From Selenomonadales bacterium (GTDB lineage Bacteria > Bacillota > Negativicutes > Sporomusales > UBA7701): a stretch of 64,000 nt of DNA. A model generated the notes under the pieces. That model was not told where the DNA came from. It saw nothing but the letters and a program-made list of their open reading frames with translations, and ran no database searches. The translations under genes and the position numbers were made by a program. Positions 19,489-64,000 of this stretch are shown one piece after another. Within the stretch, counting starts at the first letter, position 1. Every line of letters starts with the position of its first letter. Location of the stretch: NCBI GenBank assembly GCA_029975165.1, contig JARKPR010000035.1, forward strand, positions 1 through 64,000, in the 5' to 3' direction.

Positions 19489-19571
19489 TTTTGCTGACCC
19501 GCGGCGTTGGCGCGATATTTGCATGAGTAGGAGATAGCGACGTCCAATCGTGGATAACGGAGGAGATAACG

Positions 19572-25440: not shown

Positions 25441-25564
25441 GATTACACCTCCGCCTGCTAGTTTGCCCCTGACCGGCCGGGCGTATTAGGCCGCCAGGGA
25501 AATTTGTTGACAACGGCGCGTCCGGTCTGGTATACTCATGCCAAATACATAACATTACAATCGA

Positions 25565-25833
25565 TGACCAGGAAGAGTACACATGGCAAGAGGGTCACAG
25601 CGAGCCGACGGTAGTGGGAGGTCGGCACTGCTCGACATGTCGAATGGGCCTGGGAGATACGGTCCGAGCCGCGCAAGCGGGGTAGGCGCCGTCGGGTCCT
25701 CCCCCGTTAGCGGGAGGCGGGTATCGGAGCTGCGCTCCCGTACCATGTAAAGCTGGGCCGTTTCGACGGCCAATTAGGGTGGCACCGCGGGTTAACCCCT
25801 CGTCCCTTCACCGGGATGAGGGGTTTTGTATAT
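25565..25833 (+). promoter_or_regulatory. T-box leader 1, probably tryptophan-specific
   Basis: Stem I closes with CCAGG (25567-25571) and CCTGG. Its internal loop has AGAGTA on the 5' side and CGAATGGG on the 3' side, the loop E plus specifier arrangement. The likely specifier after GAA is TGG (tryptophan). The T-box sequence AGGGTGGCACCGCGGG is near 25776-25791. The terminator ACCCCTCGTCCC / GGGATGAGGGGTT (25795-25825) precedes TTTTGTATATTTT. Uncharged tRNA-Trp should allow read-through into ecfA. A one-base shift of the specifier would read glycine, so the codon is not certain. Confidence 0.85.
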
Positions 25834-28216: not shown

Positions 28217-28255
28217 GGATAGCGGGTTGCCGAAAAGTTAATCTTTAAACATCGA

Positions 28256-28512
28256 TGATCGGGAGTAGTACCCATACTGGAGAGTCCCAGCGAGCCGGCG
28301 GCGGTGGAAGGCCGGCACAGCTCGGTATGGCGAATGGACCCGGGAGATACGGCCCGAGCCGCGTACGCGGGGTAGGCGCCGTCGGCATTCCCCCGTTAGC
28401 GGGAAGCAGGTATCGGAGTTCACTCCCGTACCTGGCGAAGCGAGCCGCTGCGGCGGCTAAATTGGGTGGCACCACGGGTAAGAACCCGTCCCTTACCGGG
28501 GACGGGTTTTTG
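28256..28512 (+). promoter_or_regulatory. T-box leader 2, probably tryptophan-specific
   Basis: It is a clear relative of leader 1. Stem I base CGGG (28260-28263) pairs with CCCG, with AGTAGTA opposite CGAATGGA, so the proposed specifier is again TGG. The T-box motif GGGTGGCACCACGGGT is at 28464-28479. The terminator AACCCGTCCC (28483-28492) pairs with GGGGACGGGTT (28498-28508) and is followed by a T run. The two leaders share long identical blocks such as GGGAGATACGG and GGGGTAGGCGCCGTCGG, which points to duplication. Confidence 0.87.
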
Positions 28513-37745: not shown

Positions 37746-37833
37746 GGAGGGGTGTCCGAGTGGTTTATGGAGCTGGTCTTGAAAACCAGTGATCCCGCAA
37801 GGGACCGTGGGTTCGAATCCCACCCCCTCCGCC
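37746..37833 (+). tRNA. tRNA-Ser (anticodon TGA)
   Basis: GGAGGGG acceptor pairs with CCCCTCC. The anticodon stem CTGGT/ACCAG encloses CTTGAAA. A long variable arm (GATCCCGCAAGGGACC) identifies serine, and CCA is encoded. Confidence 0.96.
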
Positions 37834-51251: not shown

Positions 51252-52271
51252 ATGAGTTCACCCAAAGTTGTGGAAATGGCAGAGCTTTTGGATCAGCTAA
51301 TCAATACGGATATATCCGGCCGAGGGGTTATCAGGCCGCTGCATGCTGCGGCCAGAAAACTGCTCGATAAACCTATGACCTTGGCCGCCGCGGAGTTATT
51401 GCAAACCGCCGTTGCGCCGGAGAAGCCGGTGATCATCGCTACCGGCTGGGTCGACCAGCCTCTGGTGGCCCCCGGCTGCGGCGAGTCGGACGGTCCTCCG
51501 GGGGCGGTCCTTCTAGCGCGTGCGCTACGGGTGTCTTTAAAGGCTTTGCCGATTATTCTCGTGGACGAATGCCTTGTCGAAGGAATGAAAAAGATTGCCC
51601 GCGCCGCCGGCTTTCAATGCGTGCCCCCGGAACATCTCCGCTATTCCGTCGAGCTGAATAAAATGATAACCCTTTCGATCCTCCCCTTTCCCGTCGACCC
51701 GGAAGAGGCGAAAATAGAAGCGGCCAGGATGATCGAGAAATTCGGCCCGGCAGCCTGCATTGCCATTGAGCGCGGCTCGATGAACGACGCCGGCGTGATC
51801 CACAACATGGCCGGGCGGGACACCGGAGAAACCATGGCCAAGCTGGACTATCTGTTCAGGGAGGCGCGGCGTAACGCCATCCCTACCATAGGCATCGGCG
51901 ACGGCGGCAACGAAATCGGCATGGGTAATATCGCCGAAGCCATTCGCGACCAAATACCTTACGGCAAAAAGTGCCAATGCCCGTGCGGCGCCGGTTTGGC
52001 GCCCTCGACCAACGTCGATGTGCTGGTCACGGCCACGATCTCCAATTGGGCCGCCTATGCCATAACGGCCATGCTGGGCGCTCTCACGGGAGCAGATGTG
52101 ATAAATACTGCGGAAAGGGAAAAAGAAGTCCTGTCCGCCACGGCCGGCGCCGGCTTTCATGACCCGATCGCCGGCTCAGTCACGCCGAGCGTCGACGGCT
52201 GCCGCGCCGAAGTGCAGCTGGCCATGGTATCCTTGATACGGGAAATCGTCGTTCAACGACAGAAAGGGTAA
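51252..52271 (+). CDS. D-glutamate cyclase (DUF4392 family)
   Basis: The 339-residue protein fits DUF4392, whose vertebrate member turns D-glutamate into 5-oxo-D-proline. Conserved pieces are ATGWVDQPLVAPGCGESDGPPGA, PAACIAIERGSMNDAGVIHNM, GIGDGGNEIGMGNI and NWAAYAITAMLG (near 257-268). These are from my memory of the family. It closes the D-amino-acid operon: transaminase, D-serine lyase and this enzyme cover the major free D-amino acids of cell walls. A terminator follows. Confidence 0.85.
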   Translation: MSSPKVVEMAELLDQLINTDISGRGVIRPLHAAARKLLDKPMTLAAAELLQTAVAPEKPVIIATGWVDQPLVAPGCGESDGPPGAVLLARALRVSLKALPIILVDECLVEGMKKIARAAGFQCVPPEHLRYSVELNKMITLSILPFPVDPEEAKIEAARMIEKFGPAACIAIERGSMNDAGVIHNMAGRDTGETMAKLDYLFREARRNAIPTIGIGDGGNEIGMGNIAEAIRDQIPYGKKCQCPCGAGLAPSTNVDVLVTATISNWAAYAITAMLGALTGADVINTAEREKEVLSATAGAGFHDPIAGSVTPSVDGCRAEVQLAMVSLIREIVVQRQKG

Positions 52272-52326
52272 AAAATTTCGATTTGGGTCACTGGGGATGC
52301 TCCTACTTAAAATGGTAGCAAAATAT

Positions 52327-52370
52327 GCAGGCCTCGTCTGCGGAAACCGGCTGACGGGGCCTGCTGTTTT
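52327..52370 (+). terminator. Terminator of the D-amino-acid operon
   Basis: GCAGGCCTCGTC (52327-52338) pairs with GACGGGGCCTGC (52353-52364), then TGTTTTGT. Confidence 0.85.
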
Positions 52371-52408
52371 GTATAAGAATGCAGGCAGCTGCAATCTGCT
52401 TTTTTCGG

Positions 52409-52589
52409 TAAGCTGCGCCACGCTTCCAAGGGCTACGATAACTTTAGGCCGCACGAGTGCCATCTCCCCGTCCAGCCAGTTCATGGCGCAGAAGCGGCCC
52501 TCATCGACCGTCGGTGTCCGGTTGCCCTTGGCCATAGGGCTGAAAGTCCAGTAGATGATCAAGGTCTGCAGGGTGTACAAGAAGAGCAA
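52409..52589 (-). pseudogene. Uracil-DNA glycosylase (family 4/5-like) fragment
   Basis: On the minus strand a frame reads SPMAKGNRTPTVDE, then WLDGEMALVRPKVIVALGS. In family 4 uracil-DNA glycosylases the corresponding block is CRPPxNRTPTxEE ... LxxEIxLxRPKVIVALG. Only this internal piece is left. The N- and C-terminal catalytic parts are gone, and beyond the motif the frame runs into the operon terminator. It marks a genome junction between the D-amino-acid operon and the tRNA-Sec locus. Confidence 0.75.
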
Positions 52590-52702: not shown

Positions 52703-52747
52703 AACAGATGGCCTGCTGACCCACATATACGACAGCGCTTTGCTATG

Positions 52748-52763
52748 GCATAAAACTTGCAAA
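52748..52763 (+). promoter_or_regulatory. Sigma-54 promoter of tRNA-Sec
   Basis: TGGCAT-AAAAC-TTGCA has GG (52749-52750) and GC (52761-52762) separated by exactly ten bases, the -24/-12 geometry of RpoN promoters. The predicted start is near 52774, only about five bases before the tRNA-Sec 5' end. No sigma-70 promoter is evident in this stretch. Confidence 0.8.
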
Positions 52764-52778
52764 TAAAATTATGTATGG

Positions 52779-52872
52779 GGGCGGATGGGGCCTGGTGGCT
52801 TCTGCGGTCTTCAAAACCGTTTCGTGGCGTTAATCCGTCATGGGTGGGTTCGATTCCTACACGCTCCCGCCA
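52779..52872 (+). tRNA. selC: tRNA-Sec (selenocysteine, anticodon TCA)
   Basis: A 94-base cloverleaf. The anticodon stem GCGGT/ACCGT encloses CTTCAAA. The long acceptor GGGGGCGG faces ACGCTCCC (seven pairs plus a terminal mismatch). A very long variable arm (TTCGTGGCGTTAATCCGTCATGG), the T arm GTGGG-TTCGATT-CCTAC and encoded GCCA are present. The TCA anticodon reads UGA, in line with four in-frame UGA codons in the genes that follow. Confidence 0.93.
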
Positions 52873-53018: not shown

Positions 53019-54701
53019 ATGATGATTGAAAAAGAAGTTCAAGCTATTCTCTTAGATAGAATCAAGGAAGGGATTGTCGCTCTCGATTCCTCCGGAAGAA
53101 TAGAATCTCTCAACAAGTCGGCCGACTTAATGCTGACTAAGTCCCAAAAGACCATTGTCGGGAGCGATTTTTCCACGATAGTCAATCTGGATCTGCGGCA
53201 GTGCCTAATTAGCGGGAACTTCACATCTGTTCAAGGGAAAAAGCTCAAAGTTGCTGAAACGGTTATCAGGGTCGACTGTGTGCCCCGATATGACGGCAGC
53301 GAGTGTACAGGAGTAACGCTTGTCCTGAACGATATAACGGAAATAAGGCAGATTGCGGAAGATCTGGGGCATGCCAAGGAAGAAAAGGCCAGACTGGAAA
53401 GCTTCCTGAATTTATTGGATGAGGCGGTTATAATCACTGACGCCTGGGGAAAGATTACCGGCGTAAATCAGGCGGTTTACGCATATGAAGAAAAGGCGAA
53501 CAGCTTCATCGGGAAAAAAATAACGGACATTTTGGACGATCAGATCGAATTCCCCGTTTTATCAGCCAACAGTGTTGTCAGATGGAAGAGGGAGGATGGG
53601 AATTTTATCGTCGGGGTCATAATTCCCATGCGCTTCTTGAACCGCATCATCGGTTATGCGGTCAGGTTTCAGAAAAGCGACAGTCGCAATCCAACGGATG
53701 AAATCGCCGGCGAATACCTGTACAAGGCCGGGGAGGTTTCCCAGCAGGCGCAGTACTGCTTGAGCGATATCATCGGACAGAGCAATGCCATCCGCAATTT
53801 GAAGACGATGGTCAAAAAAATTGCCCAGACAAAGTCGGCCATCATGATCGAAAGTGAAAGCGGTACCGGCAAGGAGCTGTTTGCGCACGCGATCCACAAT
53901 CTAAGCCCCCGGGCAACCTTCCCCTTTGTTAAACTAAACTGCGCCGGACTGCCGGATACGTTGCTGGAGTCCGAGTTGTTCGGCTATGGCGAGGGAGCGT
54001 TCACCGGCGCGAGAAAGGGCGGCTATAAAGGGCGCTTCGAACTGGCGCACAACGGGACGCTGTTTCTGGACGAAGTGGGGGAAATGCCCTTATCGATGCA
54101 GGCCAAGTTTCTCCGCGTATTGCAGGAGCAAGAGATTCAACGCCTGGGAGACGAGAAAACCAGGAAGGTCGATGTCCGCATTATCTGCGCCACTAATCAG
54201 GATTTATGGTCCCTTGTCAAGCGTAAGCAATTCCGGGAGGATTTGTACTACCGGCTCAATGTCGTCAAATTAGCCATACCCCCGCTCCGGGAAAGGCGCG
54301 AAGACATTAAACCGTTGGTTCTGTCACTGATCCGCAAATACTCGCAGGAATTCCAGAAAAAGGTTACCGGCATATCGCCGGATGTATACGCGGCCCTGGT
54401 CAATTATGATTGGCCCGGTAACGTCAGGGAACTTAACAATGCCATTGAAGCGGTTTTCAACATTGTCGACAACGAAATCATCGAGCTGCATCACCTTCCA
54501 GCCCGCTTCGCTTCGCCGCAAATAGTGCGTTATAAGGCTTCGGGCACGCTGGAAAGTTACTTGCTGGAATGCGAAAAGGAAGCCGTGACCCTGGCCTTGA
54601 AAAATGCCGGCGGCAATAAGATCCAGGCCGCCAAGATCCTCGGTATTTCAAGAGCGGCATTGTATCGTAAATTAAATTGTTTTGACGGTACGCCGGTTTA
54701 G
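53019..54701 (+). CDS. Sigma-54-dependent transcriptional activator with PAS domains
   Basis: A 560-residue enhancer-binding protein. Residues 1-120 and 125-240 look like two PAS sensor domains (GIVALDSSGRIESLNKSA and AVIITDAWGKITGVNQAV starts). The AAA+ domain runs from about 250 to 480, with Walker A ESGTGKELFA (about 279), GAFTGA (about 325, the sigma-54 contact) and LFLDEVGEMP. A Fis-type HTH (NKIQAAKILGISRAALYRKL) ends the protein. It belongs to the group of PrdR/RocR-like amino acid regulators and very likely controls the three sigma-54 promoters nearby. It is GC-poor relative to neighbours. Confidence 0.92.
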   Translation: MMIEKEVQAILLDRIKEGIVALDSSGRIESLNKSADLMLTKSQKTIVGSDFSTIVNLDLRQCLISGNFTSVQGKKLKVAETVIRVDCVPRYDGSECTGVTLVLNDITEIRQIAEDLGHAKEEKARLESFLNLLDEAVIITDAWGKITGVNQAVYAYEEKANSFIGKKITDILDDQIEFPVLSANSVVRWKREDGNFIVGVIIPMRFLNRIIGYAVRFQKSDSRNPTDEIAGEYLYKAGEVSQQAQYCLSDIIGQSNAIRNLKTMVKKIAQTKSAIMIESESGTGKELFAHAIHNLSPRATFPFVKLNCAGLPDTLLESELFGYGEGAFTGARKGGYKGRFELAHNGTLFLDEVGEMPLSMQAKFLRVLQEQEIQRLGDEKTRKVDVRIICATNQDLWSLVKRKQFREDLYYRLNVVKLAIPPLRERREDIKPLVLSLIRKYSQEFQKKVTGISPDVYAALVNYDWPGNVRELNNAIEAVFNIVDNEIIELHHLPARFASPQIVRYKASGTLESYLLECEKEAVTLALKNAGGNKIQAAKILGISRAALYRKLNCFDGTPV

Positions 54702-54867
54702 ACGGAAAACCGGAAAAAGGCAGAATAATCAGTACGCTTGCTGTATTAAAACCGAGAAATGTATCGTAGTTGAGAACAGCTGAAGCAAGTCTTGAATTAG
54801 CTGATGTTTGTGACGATTTTCTCATACGACGTCTACAAAATGAGAAGAGAGTAACGTTCTGCGATCG
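54702..54867 (+). promoter_or_regulatory. Upstream activating region of the grdE-like operon
   Basis: GAGAAATGTATCG (54754-54766) resembles GAGACGTGTATCG (59913-59925) upstream of the second reductase promoter (11 of 13 bases) and lies about 135 bases before the -24 box in both orientation and spacing similar to that site. TTCTCAT and ATGAGAA form an additional inverted repeat near 54820-54848. These are candidate binding sites of the PAS activator. Confidence 0.6.
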
Positions 54868-54899
54868 GCTCATGTGCACGGACATGGGCTTTTTTATTT
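54868..54899 (+). terminator. Terminator of the activator gene
   Basis: GCTCATGT (54868-54875) pairs with ACATGGGC (54882-54889), followed by TTTTTTATTTC. It sits directly before the sigma-54 promoter. Confidence 0.88.
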
Positions 54900-54915
54900 C
54901 GGCATGAAACTTGCT
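54900..54915 (+). promoter_or_regulatory. Sigma-54 promoter of the grdE-like / grdB operon
   Basis: CGGCAT-GAAAC-TTGCT has GG (54901-54902) and GC (54913-54914) ten bases apart. Predicted start is near 54926, leaving a 110-base leader without obvious structure before the grdE-like gene. Confidence 0.78.
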
Positions 54916-55036: not shown

Positions 55037-56299
55037 ATGCGTTTGCAGAAGCTCTACTATGACATCGAGAACGTGGTTTTTGACGCTAAAACTTATCTTG
55101 ACGGACATTCGCTGCATATCAACAGAGACGAATTAATCGAGACGGTCGCCGATAAACGGTTCGCCGACATTACTATCGGCTTGGCGATTCCCGGGGAAAG
55201 TTGCCGGATTATGAATCCGGGAGACATCGTGCAGCCGACCCTTCGCCTGGAGGATGAAAAGGCTACGTTTCCGGGCGCCCAGGGCGAAATGCGCCGGGCC
55301 GGAAACGGAAAAACCATAGCGTTGCGCGGCGTCGCCGTCGCGGAAGTGTGCGAGCGGTTCCTTTCTTTGGGCTGCTTCCTCGATATGTCGGGCCCTGGAG
55401 CGGAACACACGCCTTTTTCCGAAACGATCAATATTTGCATCGACCCGACACCGGCCGCAGGCGTCGAACTGAACGATTACCTGGAGGCTTTGAAGGCGGC
55501 GTCGCTTAAAGCGGCTGCTTATCTGGCCAAGGCGGCCAAAGACCATACGCCCGATGCGGTCGAGGAGTTCGCGTTGGAGCGGGAGGGTCTGGAGGGCTTG
55601 CCCAGAGTGGCCTATATCTTCCAGATATTCAACCATGCGCCGTATACCGACACTCTGCTGTACGGCGACAGCGGCTTGTCGATGCTGCCGGTCGTGGTCC
55701 ATCCGAACGAGATTCTGGACGGCGCGCTGGTAAATCGGGACTATGGCCAGATTTCCAACGCCGATCCGACATTCGTTTATCAGAATCACCCGATGATTCT
55801 CGAGCTTTACCGGCGGCACGGCAAGGATGTCAATTTTGTCGGCGTCGTGGTGTCCAATACGCCCCACGTCGTCACCGACAAGAACAGGAACGCGATGCTG
55901 GCCACGGGATTGGTCAAGTACACCTTGAAAGCCGATGCCGTCATCATCACGAAAGAGGGGGGCGGGCATCCCCAGGTCGATATCGCCCTCATCTGCGACG
56001 ATTGCGAGGGGCTGGGCGTAAAGACGGCCATCCTCATTTCCGAATTCCTGTCGCCGAGCAATGCTACGGATGAGACGGTGCTTTTTACGACCAAAAATGC
56101 CGATGCCATGGTAGCCGCCGGCTGCCTGGAGTTTATGATCTTCCCTCCCATGGAAAAAGCTATCGGCGGCATCAAGATCGCCAACCCCGGGTCGACGGCT
56201 TTTTGCGACCCGCACGAGGCGTTCCGGCACAGGATCAAGAGCATCAGGGGCGGGATGAGCCAGTTGGGCGGCCTGCTGTACACTTCGATGAAGTATTAA
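55037..56299 (+). CDS. Component B alpha-type subunit (GrdE/GrdG/GrdI-like), atypical
   Basis: A 420-residue protein of the glycine/sarcosine/betaine reductase component B proprotein family. Blocks such as DITIGLAIPGESCRIMNPGDIV (about residues 44-65, in part) and HPMILELYRRHGKDVNFVGVVVSN (251-274, in part) fit. In known members a Cys in the middle is turned into a pyruvoyl group during self-cleavage. Here no Cys lies between residues 134 and 320. The stretch that I align to the cleavage site reads DGALVNRDYG. The protein may be uncleaved, may use Ser, or may act differently. It precedes the selenoprotein subunit by 36 bases. Confidence 0.78.
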   Translation: MRLQKLYYDIENVVFDAKTYLDGHSLHINRDELIETVADKRFADITIGLAIPGESCRIMNPGDIVQPTLRLEDEKATFPGAQGEMRRAGNGKTIALRGVAVAEVCERFLSLGCFLDMSGPGAEHTPFSETINICIDPTPAAGVELNDYLEALKAASLKAAAYLAKAAKDHTPDAVEEFALEREGLEGLPRVAYIFQIFNHAPYTDTLLYGDSGLSMLPVVVHPNEILDGALVNRDYGQISNADPTFVYQNHPMILELYRRHGKDVNFVGVVVSNTPHVVTDKNRNAMLATGLVKYTLKADAVIITKEGGGHPQVDIALICDDCEGLGVKTAILISEFLSPSNATDETVLFTTKNADAMVAAGCLEFMIFPPMEKAIGGIKIANPGSTAFCDPHEAFRHRIKSIRGGMSQLGGLLYTSMKY

Positions 56300-56335: not shown

Positions 56336-57619
56336 GTGGCGAAAAAGATCAGGATAGTCCATTATATCAACCAATTCTTCGGCCAGTATGGCGGCGAAGA
56401 TGCGGCGAGTATGGGTATTGTGGTCAAAGAAGAAATGGTCGGCCCGGGCAAAGGCCTGGCAGCCGCTCTGGGCGACCGGGCGGAAATCGTGGCCACCGTA
56501 ATCTGCGGCGACAACCACATCGCCGAACGTTTGGAAGAAGTCACGAAGGAAGTAGTAGATATCATCGAAAAGTATAAGCCCGACCTGGTGTTCGCCGGTC
56601 CGGCCTACGGCGCCGGCCGCTACGGCGTTGCCTGTGGCTCGGTGTGCGCTGCGGTCCAGAAACGGCTGGGTATACCCGCGGTGACGGCGCAAAATGAGGA
56701 AAATCCCGGGGCGGACATTTTCAAGAAAGAGCTATATATCATCAAGACTGGCACCAACGCCAGGACCATGGCCGACGACACCAAGAGAATAGTCGCGCTG
56801 GGCTTGAAGCTGTTGGCCGGCGAATTTATCGGCAGCCCGGAGGACGAAGGCTATATAACGCGCGGGCTGGCCAGGAACGTGAAATCGCCGAAAAGCTCGG
56901 CCGAGCGCATCGTCGATATGCTGCTGGACAAATATCACGGCCGCCCGTTCAAGACCGAGGTGCCGATCCCTTCGCATGAAGCGGTGCCAGCTACGCCGGC
57001 CATCAAGGATCTGGCCAACGCAACGGTGGTATTGGTGACTGACGGCGGTTTGTACCCGGCAGGCAATCCCGACAGAATGCCGTCGCAAAATGCCGATACA
57101 TTCCGCTCGTACTCCATCGAGGGTAAGGATGAGCTCAAGAAAGGGGACTATATCGTCTGCCATAACGGCTATGACCCCAGCTTCGTCCTGGCCGATCCCA
57201 ACCGCCTGGTGCCCGTGGACGCGATGCGGGAGCTGGTTAAGGACAAGGTCGTCGGCAAGATGCACGAGTATTACCTGGCCACGACCGGCCTGATAACCAC
57301 GATCGCCAACAGCAAAAAGACGGCGCAGGCGATGGCGGAATATATCAAGGACCACAATATCGACGCCGCCATCCTGACCTCGACCTGAGGCTCCAGCACT
57401 CGCTGCGGTGCAGTGATTTCAAAAGAGCTTGAAAAAGCGGGCATTCCCACAGTTCAGGTTTGCAATATGACCCCTGTTGCCAATTCGGTCGGGACGCCGC
57501 GTATTTCGCCGTCGGCCAGCATCAAATATCCTTTCGGGGCACCCAGTTTGCCGGTGGATGAGGAAAAAGAGGAAAGGGTCATGATGCTGCGCGACGCCCT
57601 GGGGTATCTGACAAAATAA
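56336..57619 (+). CDS. grdB: Component B selenoprotein subunit (GrdB/GrdF/GrdH-like), UGA read as Sec
   Basis: GTG start after AAGGAGGAGCAGAGGC gives 427 residues if UGA at 57386-57388 (codon 351) is decoded as selenocysteine. The region ILTST-U-GSSTRCGAV aligns with the active site of GrdB, whose Sec is also near residue 350, and the following VGTPRISPSASIKYPFG agrees with the family C-terminus, so UGA is not a stop. In the canonical protein the Sec is followed by G-T-C, giving a Sec-Cys pair. Here it is G-S-S. A hairpin with stem GCAC/GTGC just after UGA is a plausible bacterial SECIS. Substrate: unknown. Confidence 0.86.
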
Positions 57620-57675
57620 CATCCTGTCAGCAATAGGAGTTACGGCAAAATGAATTGCGGGAGATGAATAGGACG

Positions 57676-59118
57676 ATGGCTGAAGTTGTCAAGAAAGACT
57701 TGGCACCTACCCCCAAGAAGAAAAATTTGCAGGGTGTGATCGGCGCCGTTGTCGGGATAATTCTGGGCGTGCTGATCGCCGTCATACCGCCGCCCGCCGG
57801 ACTTACGCCCCAAGCCATGCAAGCTGTCGCCATTTTGGTCTGGGGCCTTAGCTATTTCTCGTTCAAGGTGATGCCGGAGTATTTGATCGCACTTCTGATG
57901 TGCGTACTGTGGGCAGGCTTTAAAGTAGTACCTTTCGGTACGGCGTTCGCTTCGTTCCAGGGTACGACCTGGTGGCTGGTGGTCGGGGTGATGGGCATCG
58001 GCATCGCCGTGAAGAAGAGCGGCCTGCTCGGCCGCACGGCTCTGTTGGCAATGCAGCTCTTCCCGCCCACTTTCAGGGGGCAGGTGCTTTCCATGCTGAC
58101 GGTCGGCACGGTGATTGCGCCCTTGATGCCCAGCACTACGGTAAAGATCGCGATTGCCGGGCCGATAAGCGTCGGTATTGCCGAGTATCTCGGCTTCAAA
58201 AGGCAGAGCAACGGGCTGGCCGGGCTGTTCATGTCCATGTACATGGGGTTCTCCGTAAACGGCACGCTGTTTCTGAGCGCATCGTTTTTGAGCTACATGA
58301 TGCTCGGCGCTCTGCCGGCCGCCACGCAGGCCCAGTTCACCTGGCTCAACTGGACCCTCATGATGATTCCCTACGGCATAGTTCTGCTGATCGGTTCTTA
58401 TTTCGCCGCTGTCATGCTATACAAACCGGAAGAAGAAAAAACGGTCAATAAGGACTTTATCACCGCGAAGATTGCGGCCCTCGGCCCCATAAGCCGGGAC
58501 GAGAAAATTACCCTCATAATCCTGCTGATATCGCTCTGCTTCTGGATCACCGAATCGTTCCACCACATTTCTTCCACGCTGGTTGCGCTGGTGGCGATGT
58601 CCGCCCTGATAATATGCAAGGTTTTCGGGCGGACCGAGTTCCAGAACGATCTGGGATGGGGCCTGCTGGTAATGCTCGGCGGGCTGCTGAACATCGGGCC
58701 CGTCATGCACGGCGTCCATCTGGACAAGTGGATCGGCAGCGTCCTGAGCCCCTATCTCGGCCAGATCGTTTCCCAGCCATACTTATTCGTGGCGGTATTG
58801 GCCATTCTTATTTATCTGGCCCGGTTCGTCATCGACCTGGCCGCCGGCATCACGCTCTTTACCGTCGTTCTGATACCGATCGCGCAGCAGGCCGGGATAA
58901 ACCCGTGGGTCGTAGGCATGATATCCTATGTCTCGTGCTGCATCTGGAACCTTTATTATCAGAACGGCAACTTCCTCGTCGCGTTTTCGGTCATCGGCGG
59001 CGAGGATACCGTGCCGTACAGCAAAACGGTCAGGATGTCTATGGCCTATATGGTTATATCGATTATCGGCCTATGGGTCAGCGTGCCTTACTGGCAACAT
59101 TTCGGCCTGATACCGTAA
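57676..59118 (+). CDS. DASS-family (SLC13-like) anion:sodium symporter
   Basis: Polytopic membrane protein, about 480 residues from this ATG. TTG 57655 and ATG 57664 are alternatives. About 11-12 hydrophobic segments are interrupted by SNT-like elements, here MPSTTVKIAIAGPISVGI (about residue 155) and the C-terminal half with NGNFLVAFSVIGGEDTVPY. These resemble the substrate loops of divalent-anion transporters that move di- or tricarboxylates and sulfate. It lies between component B genes and the Sec-DsbA, so its cargo is likely the reductase substrate or product. That is inference. Glycine, sarcosine and betaine, by contrast, use other transporter families. Confidence 0.82.
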   Translation: MAEVVKKDLAPTPKKKNLQGVIGAVVGIILGVLIAVIPPPAGLTPQAMQAVAILVWGLSYFSFKVMPEYLIALLMCVLWAGFKVVPFGTAFASFQGTTWWLVVGVMGIGIAVKKSGLLGRTALLAMQLFPPTFRGQVLSMLTVGTVIAPLMPSTTVKIAIAGPISVGIAEYLGFKRQSNGLAGLFMSMYMGFSVNGTLFLSASFLSYMMLGALPAATQAQFTWLNWTLMMIPYGIVLLIGSYFAAVMLYKPEEEKTVNKDFITAKIAALGPISRDEKITLIILLISLCFWITESFHHISSTLVALVAMSALIICKVFGRTEFQNDLGWGLLVMLGGLLNIGPVMHGVHLDKWIGSVLSPYLGQIVSQPYLFVAVLAILIYLARFVIDLAAGITLFTVVLIPIAQQAGINPWVVGMISYVSCCIWNLYYQNGNFLVAFSVIGGEDTVPYSKTVRMSMAYMVISIIGLWVSVPYWQHFGLIP

Positions 59119-60046: not shown

Positions 60047-60062
60047 TGGCATGGAGTATGCA
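60047..60062 (+). promoter_or_regulatory. Sigma-54 promoter of the grdA operon
   Basis: TGGCAT-GGAGT-ATGCA has GG (60048-60049) and GC (60060-60061) ten bases apart. The first T of the -12 element is A. Predicted start is near 60073, about 92 bases before grdA1. Confidence 0.72.
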
Positions 60063-60164: not shown

Positions 60165-60653
60165 GTGGATTTTAAGAACAAGAAGGTCATCGTACTTGGC
60201 GAAAGCGACGGTATACCCTCGGGAGCCATCGCCCCGTGCGTGCAGGCGGCGGGCGGAGAGGTGGTTTTCCAGACAACCCAGTTCTTTGTCTGAACGGCCT
60301 GGGGGGCGATGGACCTGGAGGATCAGTGGGCAATTCTGAAGGTAATCCGTAAGCACGGGACAAACGAGCTGATCGTCATACTCGGTTGCCCGAATACCGA
60401 ATGCGCGGAATTGCACGCCGAAACGATGATTGCCGGCGATCCTTCGTTTGCAGGTCCGTTGACCGGAGTCCAGTTGGGGCTCCCCGTTTATCACGTCATG
60501 GAGGCCGAAGTCAAGAACCAAATCCCGAAAGATGCCTATCAACAGTATTTGAAGGGATTTGAACCAGCTTTTGACGAGGACGAATTTTCTCAGCTCATGA
60601 AACTGATCAGGGCAAAATACACGGCCAATAATCATAGGGGCAACGGATATTAG
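60165..60653 (+). CDS. grdA: GrdA-like selenoprotein 1, atypical active site
   Basis: From the GTG after GAGGGGGATAAAG, with UGA at 60291 as Sec43, it gives 162 residues of selenoprotein A. This protein carries the carboxymethyl-selenoether intermediate from component B to component C. MDFKNKKVIVLGESDGIPS, the active-site TAWGAMDLEDQ after the Sec and AGDPSFAGPLTGVQLGL are clear GrdA marks. The usual C-F-V-U is F-F-V-U, so the resolving Cys is missing. Two other differences, LGCPNTECAEL (extra cysteines) and a longer C-terminus, set it apart from GrdA 2. Its task may be specialised. Confidence 0.87.
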
Positions 60654-60702: not shown

Positions 60703-61632
60703 ATGCAGGAATACGACATTATAGTTGTCGGCGCCGGCCCGGCCGGCTTGACCGCGGCGATTTACGGCGCCCGCAGCAAGAGAAAGACGCTGATAATCGA
60801 GAAACTGGCCGCCGGCGGGCAGGCGGCGACCACCGAAGAGATAGAGAACTATCCCGGATTCCCTAAAGGGATTACGGGTCCCGAATTGGCGGCGATGATG
60901 GCCGAGCAGGCGAAGCATTTCGGCGCCGAGCTGCTGGCCGCCAAGGTGCAAGGCCTGGTCATCGACGGAGCCCGGCGCATCGTAAAGACCAATAAAGGGG
61001 ACTTCCGGGCCCCGGTCGTTATAATCGCTTCCGGCGCAGCCCCGAAGCTGCTCGGCTGTCCGGGAGAACTGAAGTTCAGGTCGCGTGGCGTTTCCTACTG
61101 CGCCACCTGCGATGCGGCGTTTTACGAAGAAGCGCAGGTCATGGTGGTGGGCGGCGGCGACGCCGCCGTGGAAGAGGCGCTGTATCTTACCAAGTTTGCG
61201 GATAAAGTAACGCTTGTCCACCGGCGCGACAGCCTGCGGGCGGCGAAGATAGCCCAGGAGAGGGCCAAGGACAATCCCAAGCTGGAAATCGTTTGGAATA
61301 CCGTGGTCGAGGAGATCGAGGGCGGAGACATGGTGGAAAAAGTCGTCCTCAAAGATGTCGTGAGTGGCGGTAAGCGCACCGTGCCTATCGACGGGGTTTT
61401 CATCTATGTCGGCACCGAGCCGAACACCGACTGGCTCGGCGGCTTTGTCGAGACCGATGGCCAGGGGTATATTCTCACCGACGAGAATATGAGAACGAAT
61501 TTGCCTGGCGTGTATGCAGTCGGCGACATCAGAAAAAAACCGCTGCGGCAGGTAATTACCGCCGCTGCCGACGGCGCCGTCGCCGCCGTTCATGCCGAGA
61601 AATACCTAGAAGACCAACTGCATTCCGTGTAA
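60703..61632 (+). CDS. trxB: Thioredoxin reductase
   Basis: FAD/NADPH enzyme of 309 residues that reduces the operon's thioredoxin. FAD motif GAGPAGLTAAIYGARS (about residues 10-25), redox disulfide in YCATCDAAF (about 133-141), NAD(P) fold GGGDAAVEEALYL and YAVGDIRKKPLRQ are all present. The start follows GAGAGGAGAATGGT. In amino-acid-reducing anaerobes trxB and trxA are standard neighbours of grd genes and supply electrons to component A/B. Confidence 0.95.
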   Translation: MQEYDIIVVGAGPAGLTAAIYGARSKRKTLIIEKLAAGGQAATTEEIENYPGFPKGITGPELAAMMAEQAKHFGAELLAAKVQGLVIDGARRIVKTNKGDFRAPVVIIASGAAPKLLGCPGELKFRSRGVSYCATCDAAFYEEAQVMVVGGGDAAVEEALYLTKFADKVTLVHRRDSLRAAKIAQERAKDNPKLEIVWNTVVEEIEGGDMVEKVVLKDVVSGGKRTVPIDGVFIYVGTEPNTDWLGGFVETDGQGYILTDENMRTNLPGVYAVGDIRKKPLRQVITAAADGAVAAVHAEKYLEDQLHSV

Positions 61633-61654
61633 GCAGCGAAAGGAGGTGAGACTG

Positions 61655-61987
61655 ATGGCCGGATTAATCGAAGTAAACAAAGATAATTTTGACCAGGAGG
61701 TAAAAGAAGCCAATCTCCCTGTTTTGGTCGACTTTTGGGGCCCCAAATGCGTTCCCTGCATGGGTCTCATGCCAGCCGTCGAGGAGATTGCCGCCCGCTA
61801 TGCCGGGAAGATGAAATTCTGTAAGGTCAACACTGCGGAAAATCGCCGCTTGGCGATCCAGCAAAAGGTGCTGAGCCTTCCCACCTTCTTGTTCTACAAG
61901 AATGGTGAGCTGGCCGACCAATTGCAAGGCGAGTTCGGGCCGGAGGAAATAGAGGCGAAGATTAAAGCGATGCTAGGGCTTAATTAG
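61655..61987 (+). CDS. trxA: Thioredoxin with CVPC active site
   Basis: 110 residues. FWGPKCVPCMGLMPAVEE puts the redox site C-V-P-C at about residues 32-35, instead of the usual C-G-P-C. I recall a similar motif in thioredoxins of glycine-reducing bacteria. The cis-Pro is in LSLPTFLFYKNGE. Start ATG at 61655 follows AAAGGAGGTGAGACTG. It should reduce the Sec-Cys centres of the reductase complex. Confidence 0.93.
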   Translation: MAGLIEVNKDNFDQEVKEANLPVLVDFWGPKCVPCMGLMPAVEEIAARYAGKMKFCKVNTAENRRLAIQQKVLSLPTFLFYKNGELADQLQGEFGPEEIEAKIKAMLGLN

Positions 61988-62023: not shown

Positions 62024-62491
62024 GTGTCTATTTTAGCAGGGAAAAAAGTCATCATCATGGGCGACCGGGACGGTATTCCCGGGCCAGCTATCGCCGAATG
62101 CGCCAATAGCGCCGGCGCCGATGTCGTCTTCGTCACGACCGAATGCTTTGTCTGAACGGCGGCAGGCACGGTGGATCTGCAGAACCAGGCCCGGATCAAA
62201 GAATTGACCGAACAATACGGCGGCGAAAATATCGTGATGCTGCTCGGCGGTGCCGAGCCTGAAAGCGCCTCGATTGCCGCCGAAACGGTCACAGTAGGTG
62301 ATCCGACCTTCGCAGGTCCGCTGGCAGGAGTCTCGTTGGGACTCAAAGTGTATCATGTCGTGGAACCGGAGATTAAGGCTGAATTTGACCCCAAGGTATA
62401 CGAGGAACAGGTGGCGATGATGGAGATGGTTTTGGATGTAGACAATCTCGTCGCCGAAGTAGCGAAAATGCGCCAGGAAGGAAGCAAATAA
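62024..62491 (+). CDS. grdA: GrdA selenoprotein 2, canonical
   Basis: 155 residues if UGA at 62153 is Sec44, the classical position for selenoprotein A. C-F-V-U-T-A-A-G is intact, preceded by [20 protein letters not shown] and followed by [24 protein letters not shown] start with TTGGAGGTGGATAAC in front. It lies between trxA and grdC. Unlike grdA1, it should be fully functional for component C transfer. Two grdA genes in one operon suggest division of labour. Confidence 0.95.
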
Positions 62492-62580: not shown

Positions 62581-64000
62581 ATGCCTGTTGTCAAAGGGGT
62601 AGGCTATTCGTTGATTCACGCCCCGAATATCCTTTACCATAACGGCACCACCCAGACCAGCGAACGCAAAAAGAACCCCCAATCCGAATATCTCGCCAAA
62701 TTGGCCAATCACTTGCGTAGCTACGAAACGGCGCTGGCGTATGCCCCCAATCAGGTTTATATCGGCAACATCGGCATGGACGAACTAAGGTCCATCCCCC
62801 GCCCCTGGTACTCCTCTCCGGTTGCCAAGGCCGACCGGTTTGGCCCCTATGGCGAGATCATGCCGGAGGACGAATTTTACGGCCTTATTAAAATAGCCGA
62901 TTCTTTCGACCTCGTCCGGCTCGAGGCTGAGTTTTCGGCTGCGGTCAAGGCAAAGCTGGCCAGGCACCGCTATCTTGGCAATGAACTGATTAAGCGCTTA
63001 TCCGACGGCAAGGAACTGGCCCAGATCCAAAAACTGGTGGATGATCAGGGCGCAGAGGGACTCTTTATAGCCGGGCGACTGGTGGGCTGTGTGCGCTCGG
63101 CTCATGAAATAGACGAAAACTTATCCGCCCATGTCATGCTCGAAAATCTGGTGACGAAAGCATCCTCGCTTTTGCCGCTTTTCTATCTGCTAACAACGGC
63201 TGGCGCAAAACCGGCCGATATCGACTATATCATTGAGTGTTCGGAAGAAGCTTGCGGCGACATGAACCAGCGCGGCGGCGGCAACTTCGCCAAGGCGATC
63301 GGCGAACTGGCCGGGCTGGTCAACGCGAGCGGCAGCGATGTCCGCGGTTTCTGCGCCGGTCCTGTCCATGCCATATTACAGGCCGCATCCCTGGTAAAGT
63401 CCGGGGTATTTAAGAATGTCGCCGTTGTCGGCGGCGGCTCGGCCGCCAAGCTGGGCATGAACGGCAAAGACCATGTGAACAAAAACCTGCCGGTCCTGGA
63501 AGATATGCTGGGAACTTTTGCGCTGCTCATCGCCGCGGATGACGGCTTCAATCCCGTGATTCGCCTCGACGTGGTCGGCAAGCACAATATCGGCACAGGA
63601 TCTTCGCCGCAACAGGTAATGACGGCGCTGGTGGCCGAGCCGGCAGCCAAGCTTAACCTGAAATTGGGCGACATCGACCACTTCTCGGCCGAAATGCAGA
63701 ATCCGGAGATTACCGAACCTGCCGGAGCCGGTAACGTGCCTGAGGCCAATTACAAAATGATCGCCGCCCTGGCCGTAATGGCCGGCGAAATTGCCAGAGG
63801 CGAAATCCTCCAGTTTGTCGAAAAGCATGGCTTAATAGGCTTCGCCCCGACACAGGGCCATATACCGTCCGGAGTGCCGGCGCTGGGATACTTCCGCGAC
63901 CAGATCCTTGCCGGCCGGGCCAAGACCTGCATGCTTATCGGCAAAGGCAGCCTGTTCCTCGGGAGGATGACGAACCTGTTCGACGGCCTGTCGCTTGTCA
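62581..64000 (+). CDS. grdC: Glycine reductase complex component C, GrdC subunit (partial)
   Basis: ATG after AACGGAGGTCGTCATATC opens a frame that runs off the window end (473 residues seen). It starts VVKGVGYSLIHAPNILYHN and includes EEACGDMNQRGGGNFAKAIGE and FCAGPVHAILQAASLVKSG, which mark GrdC, the thiolase-like subunit of component C that releases acetyl phosphate from the selenoprotein-A-bound intermediate. PTQGHIPSGVPALGYFRDQ is another family block. The partner grdD is expected just outside the window. Confidence 0.92.
   Translation, partial: MPVVKGVGYSLIHAPNILYHNGTTQTSERKKNPQSEYLAKLANHLRSYETALAYAPNQVYIGNIGMDELRSIPRPWYSSPVAKADRFGPYGEIMPEDEFYGLIKIADSFDLVRLEAEFSAAVKAKLARHRYLGNELIKRLSDGKELAQIQKLVDDQGAEGLFIAGRLVGCVRSAHEIDENLSAHVMLENLVTKASSLLPLFYLLTTAGAKPADIDYIIECSEEACGDMNQRGGGNFAKAIGELAGLVNASGSDVRGFCAGPVHAILQAASLVKSGVFKNVAVVGGGSAAKLGMNGKDHVNKNLPVLEDMLGTFALLIAADDGFNPVIRLDVVGKHNIGTGSSPQQVMTALVAEPAAKLNLKLGDIDHFSAEMQNPEITEPAGAGNVPEANYKMIAALAVMAGEIARGEILQFVEKHGLIGFAPTQGHIPSGVPALGYFRDQILAGRAKTCMLIGKGSLFLGRMTNLFDGLSLV

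Follow-up and report, generated by a model that had tools for sequence, protein, structure and literature searches.

We propose that the 64-kb stretch of DNA analysed here (the window, taken at its full length) carries a dedicated second tRNA-Sec gene, which is likely to be read by the sigma-54 RNA polymerase from a promoter-like site at positions 52746-52761. The site, TGGCAT-N5-TTGCA, has the TGGCA and TTGC elements of a sigma-54 promoter at GG-N10-GC spacing, with GG at 52747-52748, GC at 52759-52760 and ten bases between them; its orientation and distance fit the tRNA gene, and it lies outside every reading frame of at least 150 amino acids. An earlier note on this DNA, made from the sequence alone, had described these letters, their exact geometry and a start about five bases before tRNA-Sec; letters and geometry are confirmed, and the start, at 52772, 5 bases 5' of tRNA-Sec, is a prediction. 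The sigma-54 activator gene that the same note had placed downstream of the tRNA is also real, its product having PAS, AAA+ sigma-54 interaction and Fis-type domains. The features of the region are as follows.

52740-52769, + strand: weak sigma-70-like element TTGCTA-18-TAAAAT with 9 of 12 consensus bases, overlapping the sigma-54 site
52746-52761, + strand: sigma-54 (-24/-12) promoter-like site TGGCATAAAACTTGCA before tRNA-Sec, an exact match to TGGCAYNNNNNTTGCW
52772 (+/-1), + strand: predicted transcription start from the sigma-54 site, placed from the -12 C at 52760
52777-52872, + strand: second tRNA-Sec gene, anticodon TCA, CCA encoded (ARAGORN, Rfam, fold)
53019-54701, + strand: sigma-54 activator with PAS domain, AAA+ sigma-54 interaction domain with GAFTGA, and Fis-type HTH
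54819-54846, + strand: inverted repeat TTCTCAT-N14-ATGAGAA, which may be an enhancer for the promoter on the grdE side
54867-54890, + strand: hairpin resembling a terminator, 3' of the activator gene (1 seen, against 0.6 expected from shuffles)
54900-54915, + strand: second sigma-54-like site CGGCATGAAACTTGCT, which precedes the GrdE-like gene and shares GGCATNAAACTTGC with the tRNA site
55037-56299, + strand: GrdE/GrdG/FarE-like protein B subunit (FarE 264.5 bits, GrdG 253.3 bits, both under cut-offs)
56336-57619, + strand: GrdB/GrdF-like selenoprotein B (TIGR01918), in-frame UGA at 57386-57388
57655-59118, + strand: DASS/Na-sulfate-symporter family transporter (Pfam PF00939, 146.5 bits)
60047-60062, + strand: possible third sigma-54-like site TGGCATGGAGTATGCA before the first grdA, weak, with 1 mismatch, near-matches being at chance level
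60165-60653, + strand: first copy of GrdA-like selenoprotein A, with UGA at 60291-60293
60703-61632, + strand: thioredoxin reductase (TIGR01292, 383.1 bits, above cut-off)
61646-61987, + strand: thioredoxin (NF047697, 134.6 bits, slightly under the cut-off of 140)
62024-62491, + strand: second copy of GrdA selenoprotein A, with UGA at 62153-62155 and 175.3 bits for the portion that follows it (cut-off 130)
62581-63999, + strand: GrdC, reductase complex component C beta (770.7 bits, cut-off 450), extending past the end of the window

The gene at 52777-52872 belongs to the tRNA-Sec family by its TCA anticodon, its long variable arm and its Rfam RF01852 score of 71.9 bits, above the gathering score of 47. 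Its predicted fold, at -42.1 kcal/mol, comprises acceptor, D, anticodon and T arms as well as a long variable arm; 5 of 200 shuffles fold equally well. The 560-residue product of 53019-54701 carries the AAA+ domain with GAFTGA and the Fis-type HTH of a bacterial enhancer-binding protein; its nearest named family is PrdR (NCBIfam NF041552), at 440.3 bits and so below the curated cut-off of 795. Three UGA-bearing selenoprotein genes, the GrdB-like gene and two grdA, lie downstream of tRNA-Sec. The first of them encodes a GrdB-type selenoprotein B, with a TIGR01918 score of 458.8 bits against a cut-off of 65.45 and the in-frame UGA, whereas the two halves of the first GrdA, searched separately, scored 41.2 and 97.3 bits, each under the cut-off of 130. 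The transporter at 57655-59118 scored 150 bits against the NCBIfam DASS model, under the cut-off of 198.6. For the GrdE-like protein the closest named family is FarE of the fluoroacetate reductase FarE/FarB (PMC10838667), from which it differs in that its score against NCBIfam NF053623 (264.5 bits) is far under the family cut-off of 675.

On the upstream side of the tRNA is a D-amino-acid cluster that encodes a peptide ABC transporter ATPase, a D-amino-acid transaminase-like protein, an amidohydrolase, D-serine ammonia-lyase and a D-glutamate-cyclase-like protein. Between this last gene and the tRNA, on the - strand, lies a remnant-like frame (52179-52589) with a weak match to uracil-DNA glycosylase (24.4 bits). 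The window also holds a glycine riboswitch aptamer and two T-box leaders (1820-1906, 25555-25810 and 28246-28496, respectively).

We then asked how often such a site would be expected by chance. The exact motif, TGGCAY-N5-TTGCW, has a single occurrence in the 64-kb window; over the whole 4.19-Mb genome there are 25, compared with 2 matches to a reversed control, so that most such sites in the genome are unlikely to be due to chance. A tRNA lies directly downstream of one of the 25, namely that at 52746-52761; at another (L058) a tRNA-Leu lies about 800 bases upstream of the site. Placement relative to reading frames took in 24 of the 25 and left out L071, which is at a contig end. When the 100 bases upstream of the tRNA were shuffled with dinucleotides preserved, all 11 constrained sigma-54 positions were matched in 16 of 20,000 shuffles (0.08%). 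Furthermore, the string GGCATNAAACTTGC common to the tRNA site and the site at 54900 occurs at these two places alone in the window (expected 0.00). A matrix built from the 24 other genome sites gave the site at 52746 a score of 19.6 bits, against 15.4-23.8 (median 20.5) for the 24 themselves under leave-one-out, and in a set of 40 distinct selC upstream regions that includes the window's, the runner-up to the window's reached 5.7 bits. There is some circularity in this comparison, since those same fixed letters had served to select the 24 sites.

Looser forms of the motif behave differently. With up to two mismatches to TGGCAY-N5-TTGCW, the window holds 40 matches where 50.7 are expected; these are no commoner than chance, and so carry no meaning. 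One further sigma-54-like sequence, TGGCGCGATATTTGCA, lies at 19508-19523 on the + strand, one mismatch from consensus and at 16.3 bits. The bare GG-N10-GC geometry stressed in the earlier note occurs within 100 bases upstream of 9 of 39 other selC genes, which makes geometry alone unselective, and the fuller TGGC-N7-TTGC occurs upstream of none of the 39. That near-matches in the window stand at chance level would suit a reading in which the motif is accidental, has no promoter role, and the tRNA is read from further upstream. We regard this as very improbable, however, given the 25 genomic matches against 2 for the control and the twin site before the GrdE-like gene.

The same upstream bases hold another candidate. 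The earlier note had seen no sigma-70 promoter here, and in this it was mistaken, for the element TTGCTA-18-TAAAAT, with 9 of 12 consensus bases, overlaps the sigma-54 site. A similar count over 39 other selC upstream regions gave 34 scores of 8-10, three of 11, one of 7.5 and one region without a candidate; the window's element is no worse than these, and so has to be reckoned with. One reading would have the tRNA transcribed constitutively by the main sigma factor from this element, starting at about the first tRNA base, with the -24/-12 letters a coincidence. The consensus count, a usable spacing, an end 7 bases before the tRNA and the comparable scores of those 34 regions are all in line with such a promoter, which would also account for expression of the activator gene. 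Yet a score of 9 of 12 is reached by 3414 of the 20,000 shuffles (17%) of the same 100 upstream bases, compared with the 16 that match the sigma-54 letters, and those letters recur nearly unchanged before the GrdE-like gene; we therefore consider purely constitutive reading unlikely.

It is also conceivable that both promoters are active, the weak sigma-70-like element providing basal tRNA-Sec and activator and the sigma-54 site providing induction. This would be a compatible form of the sigma-54 explanation, and we hold it to be possible rather than probable. An activator needs some basal expression, and one that depended solely on its own sigma-54 promoter would be unable to initiate its own synthesis, a problem that the weak sigma-70-like element could solve. 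The two elements overlap, and no other 9-of-12 promoter was found before the activator; against this, the sigma-70 element is weak and of a kind common by chance. TTGCTA-18-TAAAAT may thus supply a basal level of transcription.

The preferred reading, transcription of the tRNA gene from the sigma-54 site, would ordinarily call for an enhancer (UAS), whose usual distance from sigma-54 promoters is about 80-200 bp upstream. Nothing upstream of the tRNA significantly matches the inverted repeat TTCTCAT-N14-ATGAGAA, and a comparison of the two promoters gave no common enhancer sequence of significance, as 51 of 500 shuffles equalled their local alignment. For PrdR, a repeat TGT-N10-12-ACA has been reported (PMC6615313); it does not occur upstream of tRNA-Sec. 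The missing enhancer site speaks against the preferred reading. Between the tRNA and the activator gene, the 146 bases of the + strand contain no terminator-like hairpin and no 9-of-12 sigma-70 match; as no terminator was found there, read-through from the tRNA into the activator is probable.

The window copy is one of two tRNA-Sec genes in this genome, a draft assembly with 96% completeness and 4% contamination. A distance of 62 kb separates it from the other, which is on the same contig (C3:114974-115066, 75.5 bits), and the presence of both on one contig argues against contamination as the source of either. A third match above the tRNA-Sec family cut-off on that contig, at 37746, was rejected as a tRNA-Ser (ARAGORN). 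The two copies are identical at 86 of 97 aligned positions. The nearest match to the window copy (92 of 97) is the sole tRNA-Sec gene of the same-genus genome G002, and at acceptor-stem position 4 the window copy shares a G with the other aligned family members, A being the base in most genomes of the order; together, these features suggest that it arose by duplication inside the family and is not of foreign origin. Upstream of the other copy, the sequence resembles the corresponding regions of its genus relatives, is unrelated to that of the window copy and contains no sigma-54-like site. The tRNA itself therefore does not impose the sigma-54 motif, and in this one genome a sigma-54 promoter-like site is predicted to point at the second tRNA-Sec.

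Several observations concern the completeness and the surroundings of these genes. Two tRNA-Sec copies (E 1e-10) were found in one of five genus genomes, the window's, and another of the five, a draft of 87% completeness, has none. In the draft assembly selB was not found, whereas it scores above cut-off in 4 of 5 other family genomes; matches of 183-189 bits, taken as EF-Tu, occur in G001, G004 and G005 and are missing as well in the window's genome, G002 and G003, so that we read the selB gap as an assembly fault and not as loss of the pathway. The window's genome (G000) has two matches to the sigma-54 DNA-binding domain (C2:9737-10213 and C37:69044-69517). They may represent two rpoN genes, or else they point to contamination. 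Immediately downstream of the other tRNA-Sec (L009 10243-11651, contig C3) are a TniQ gene and a frame that matches TniB weakly, placed as if a Tn7-like element had targeted selC. In L011, repeats of about 12 bases (AAATGTCAGAGT, 8.5 copies, 1375-1476) precede the tRNA-Sec at 1501, and similar repeats were seen by eye before selC in L001, L010 and L012, there downstream of a TATAAT-like box; these repeat-bearing selC genes (L001, L010, L011 and L012) are the other selC genes of the genus.

Second copies of tRNA-Sec are not confined to this genome. They were found in five further genomes of the 28 in the order (G011, G017, G018, G019 and G022) and in 7 of the 380 genomes of the class, the window's genome and G341 included. 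A GrdE-like gene is found within about 9-16 kb of the second copy in G017, G018, G019 and G022; in the two genomes whose neighbouring genes were annotated, G022 and G011, the second copy is accompanied by betaine transporter and SelB genes, and in G011 by SelD too. TGGC-N7-TTGC is absent from the 100 bases upstream of all five other second copies of the order. A second tRNA-Sec near reductase or selenium genes thus recurs in the order, and the sigma-54 site is seen only in the window's genome. Within 100 bases upstream of four of the five second copies of the order (L028, L030, L032 and L037; not that of G018) lies a palindrome, TTGTCGACAA, a possible repressor operator.

This recurrence bears on a further reading, in which the sigma-54 promoter is real and serves the activator only, the tRNA in its leader being a stray duplicate that adds nothing. 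The presence of a full tRNA-Sec elsewhere in the genome and of no detectable terminator between tRNA and activator would be expected on such a reading. The window copy is, however, intact and folds well, its variable-arm differences from its nearest relative are, on our reading of the alignment, partly paired changes, and second copies in reductase or selenium surroundings recur across the order; this reading is in our view quite unlikely, and we continue to favour a sigma-54 promoter that serves the tRNA.

We also searched for relatives of the whole arrangement. Of the 380 class genomes, none but its own matched the GrdE-like protein at E of 1e-80 or better; of the 28 genomes of the order, seven matched at 1e-50, the best outside its own genome having 33% identity. 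A search by peptide patterns in a collection of 84,980 genomes, from which the window's own genome may be left out, returned 35 stretches, none of which encodes a relative. No relative with the same cluster was found in the order, class or 84,980-genome searches.

The upstream motif was likewise sought before selC in the 84,980 genomes, in a scan that required the anticodon-stem letters TTCAAANCC, which are absent from 9 of 27 aligned selC genes of the order and make the scan incomplete. It returned 20 stretches with TGGC-N7-TTGC, 13 of them with a tRNA-Sec by ARAGORN (L075, L077, L078, L079, L081, L083, L085, L088, L089, L090, L092, L093 and L094), and none of the 13 has the TGGCAY letters. 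Seven of the 13 have an upstream stretch in common, which by eye is the end of a protein gene; in L085, TGGCA is followed by G and TTGC by C. A looser scan of 398 phylum genomes found the window's selC and one more match (G723, L117), in which ARAGORN detects no tRNA. Across these scans, a tRNA-Sec with what appears to be its own sigma-54 site inside a selenoprotein cluster is a single case in one genome.

Among the closest parallels are sigma-54-controlled reductase genes. In Sporomusa sphaeroides KIAC, the available part of PMC12456013 reports 24 SigL promoters with the mapped motif TGGCA-N6-TTGC, several of them in a 58-kb betaine(-reductase) cluster that holds selenocysteine-incorporation genes. 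TGGCA-N6-TTGC promoters in a grd cluster are thus common to that strain and the window; the strain differs in that a separate grd-selAB cluster is SigA-dependent, and that part of the report names no tRNA-Sec promoter (PMC12456013). TGGCAT forms are also included in the SigL promoter table of Clostridioides difficile, as far as given in the part of PMC7438776 consulted. The PrdR- and SarR-controlled sigma-54 operons of Clostridiales (prd, grdGF), as portrayed in the relevant sections of PMC6615313, likewise combine a sigma-54 promoter, a local activator and Stickland-type reductase genes; unlike these operons, the window has a tRNA-Sec gene with a sigma-54-like site of its own. The main text of that regulon study contains no occurrence of tRNA or selC (PMC6615313), and the same is true of the main text of a Geobacter sigma-54 study (PMC2725144).

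As for tRNA-Sec genes read by sigma-54, we found no report in the open-access literature, which is weak evidence of absence. The RpoN site between nac and asnV in E. coli is best assigned to nac. This site, with asnV being a tRNA-Asn gene, resembles the present one in lying beside a tRNA gene and differs in lying between divergent genes, according to the available part of PMC8743547. Two tRNA-Sec genes differing by compensatory changes have been described in eight bacterial genomes (PMC5330540, in the part available). Those genomes are similar to the window's in having two non-identical, structurally sound tRNA-Sec genes each; they differ in that the copies are adjacent in one operon or belong to two complete operons, and promoter type is not discussed in that part of the report (PMC5330540). 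Where selC is nested in or overlaps selB, tRNA-Sec supply could similarly be tied to other Sec genes, the coupling there being by overlap and not by a sigma-54 promoter, as set out in the available parts of PMC8124441 and PMC13188914.

From the parts and their order we infer how sigma-54 use, co-transcription, a ligand and a benefit might fit together. The PAS domain of the PrdR-like activator would sense the substrate of the GrdB-type reductase, and the ligand-bound activator would open both sigma-54 promoters, on the tRNA side and on the GrdE-like side. The 5-base leader would be trimmed, and extra tRNA-Sec made alongside the selenoproteins. The transcript would probably continue from the tRNA into the activator gene, giving positive autoregulation, with a basal level coming from the weak overlapping sigma-70-like element or from another activator. 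More specifically, and with a little less than even confidence, we suggest that tRNA-Sec and its own activator share one transcript, that processing frees the activator mRNA, and that the resulting loop raises tRNA-Sec, the activator and the three selenoprotein genes.

The gene is probably best viewed as an inducible top-up source of tRNA-Sec, perhaps co-transcribed with the activator. The proposal in the earlier note that tRNA-Sec supply is inducible holds up as far as the site, its twin, the activator and the rpoN-type genes are concerned, and has to be narrowed in two respects. Since the genome carries another tRNA-Sec, the window copy could only top up the supply and not be its sole inducible source; and as the sigma-70-like element overlaps the site, control may not be purely enhancer-dependent.

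Genes for tRNAs are regarded as housekeeping genes that are read by the main sigma factor. If the proposed reading is true, one selenoenzyme cluster would have a dedicated tRNA gene under enhancer-dependent control, and, if that gene is switched on only through the activator, supply of the 21st amino acid would prove to be adjustable at the level of transcription, cluster by cluster. That second copies near reductase or selenium genes recur in the order with different upstream sequence suggests that there may be a supply bottleneck when reductases are induced. From the sequence of this one genome, we predict that the supply of tRNA-Sec may rise with the demand of the cluster's selenium enzymes.
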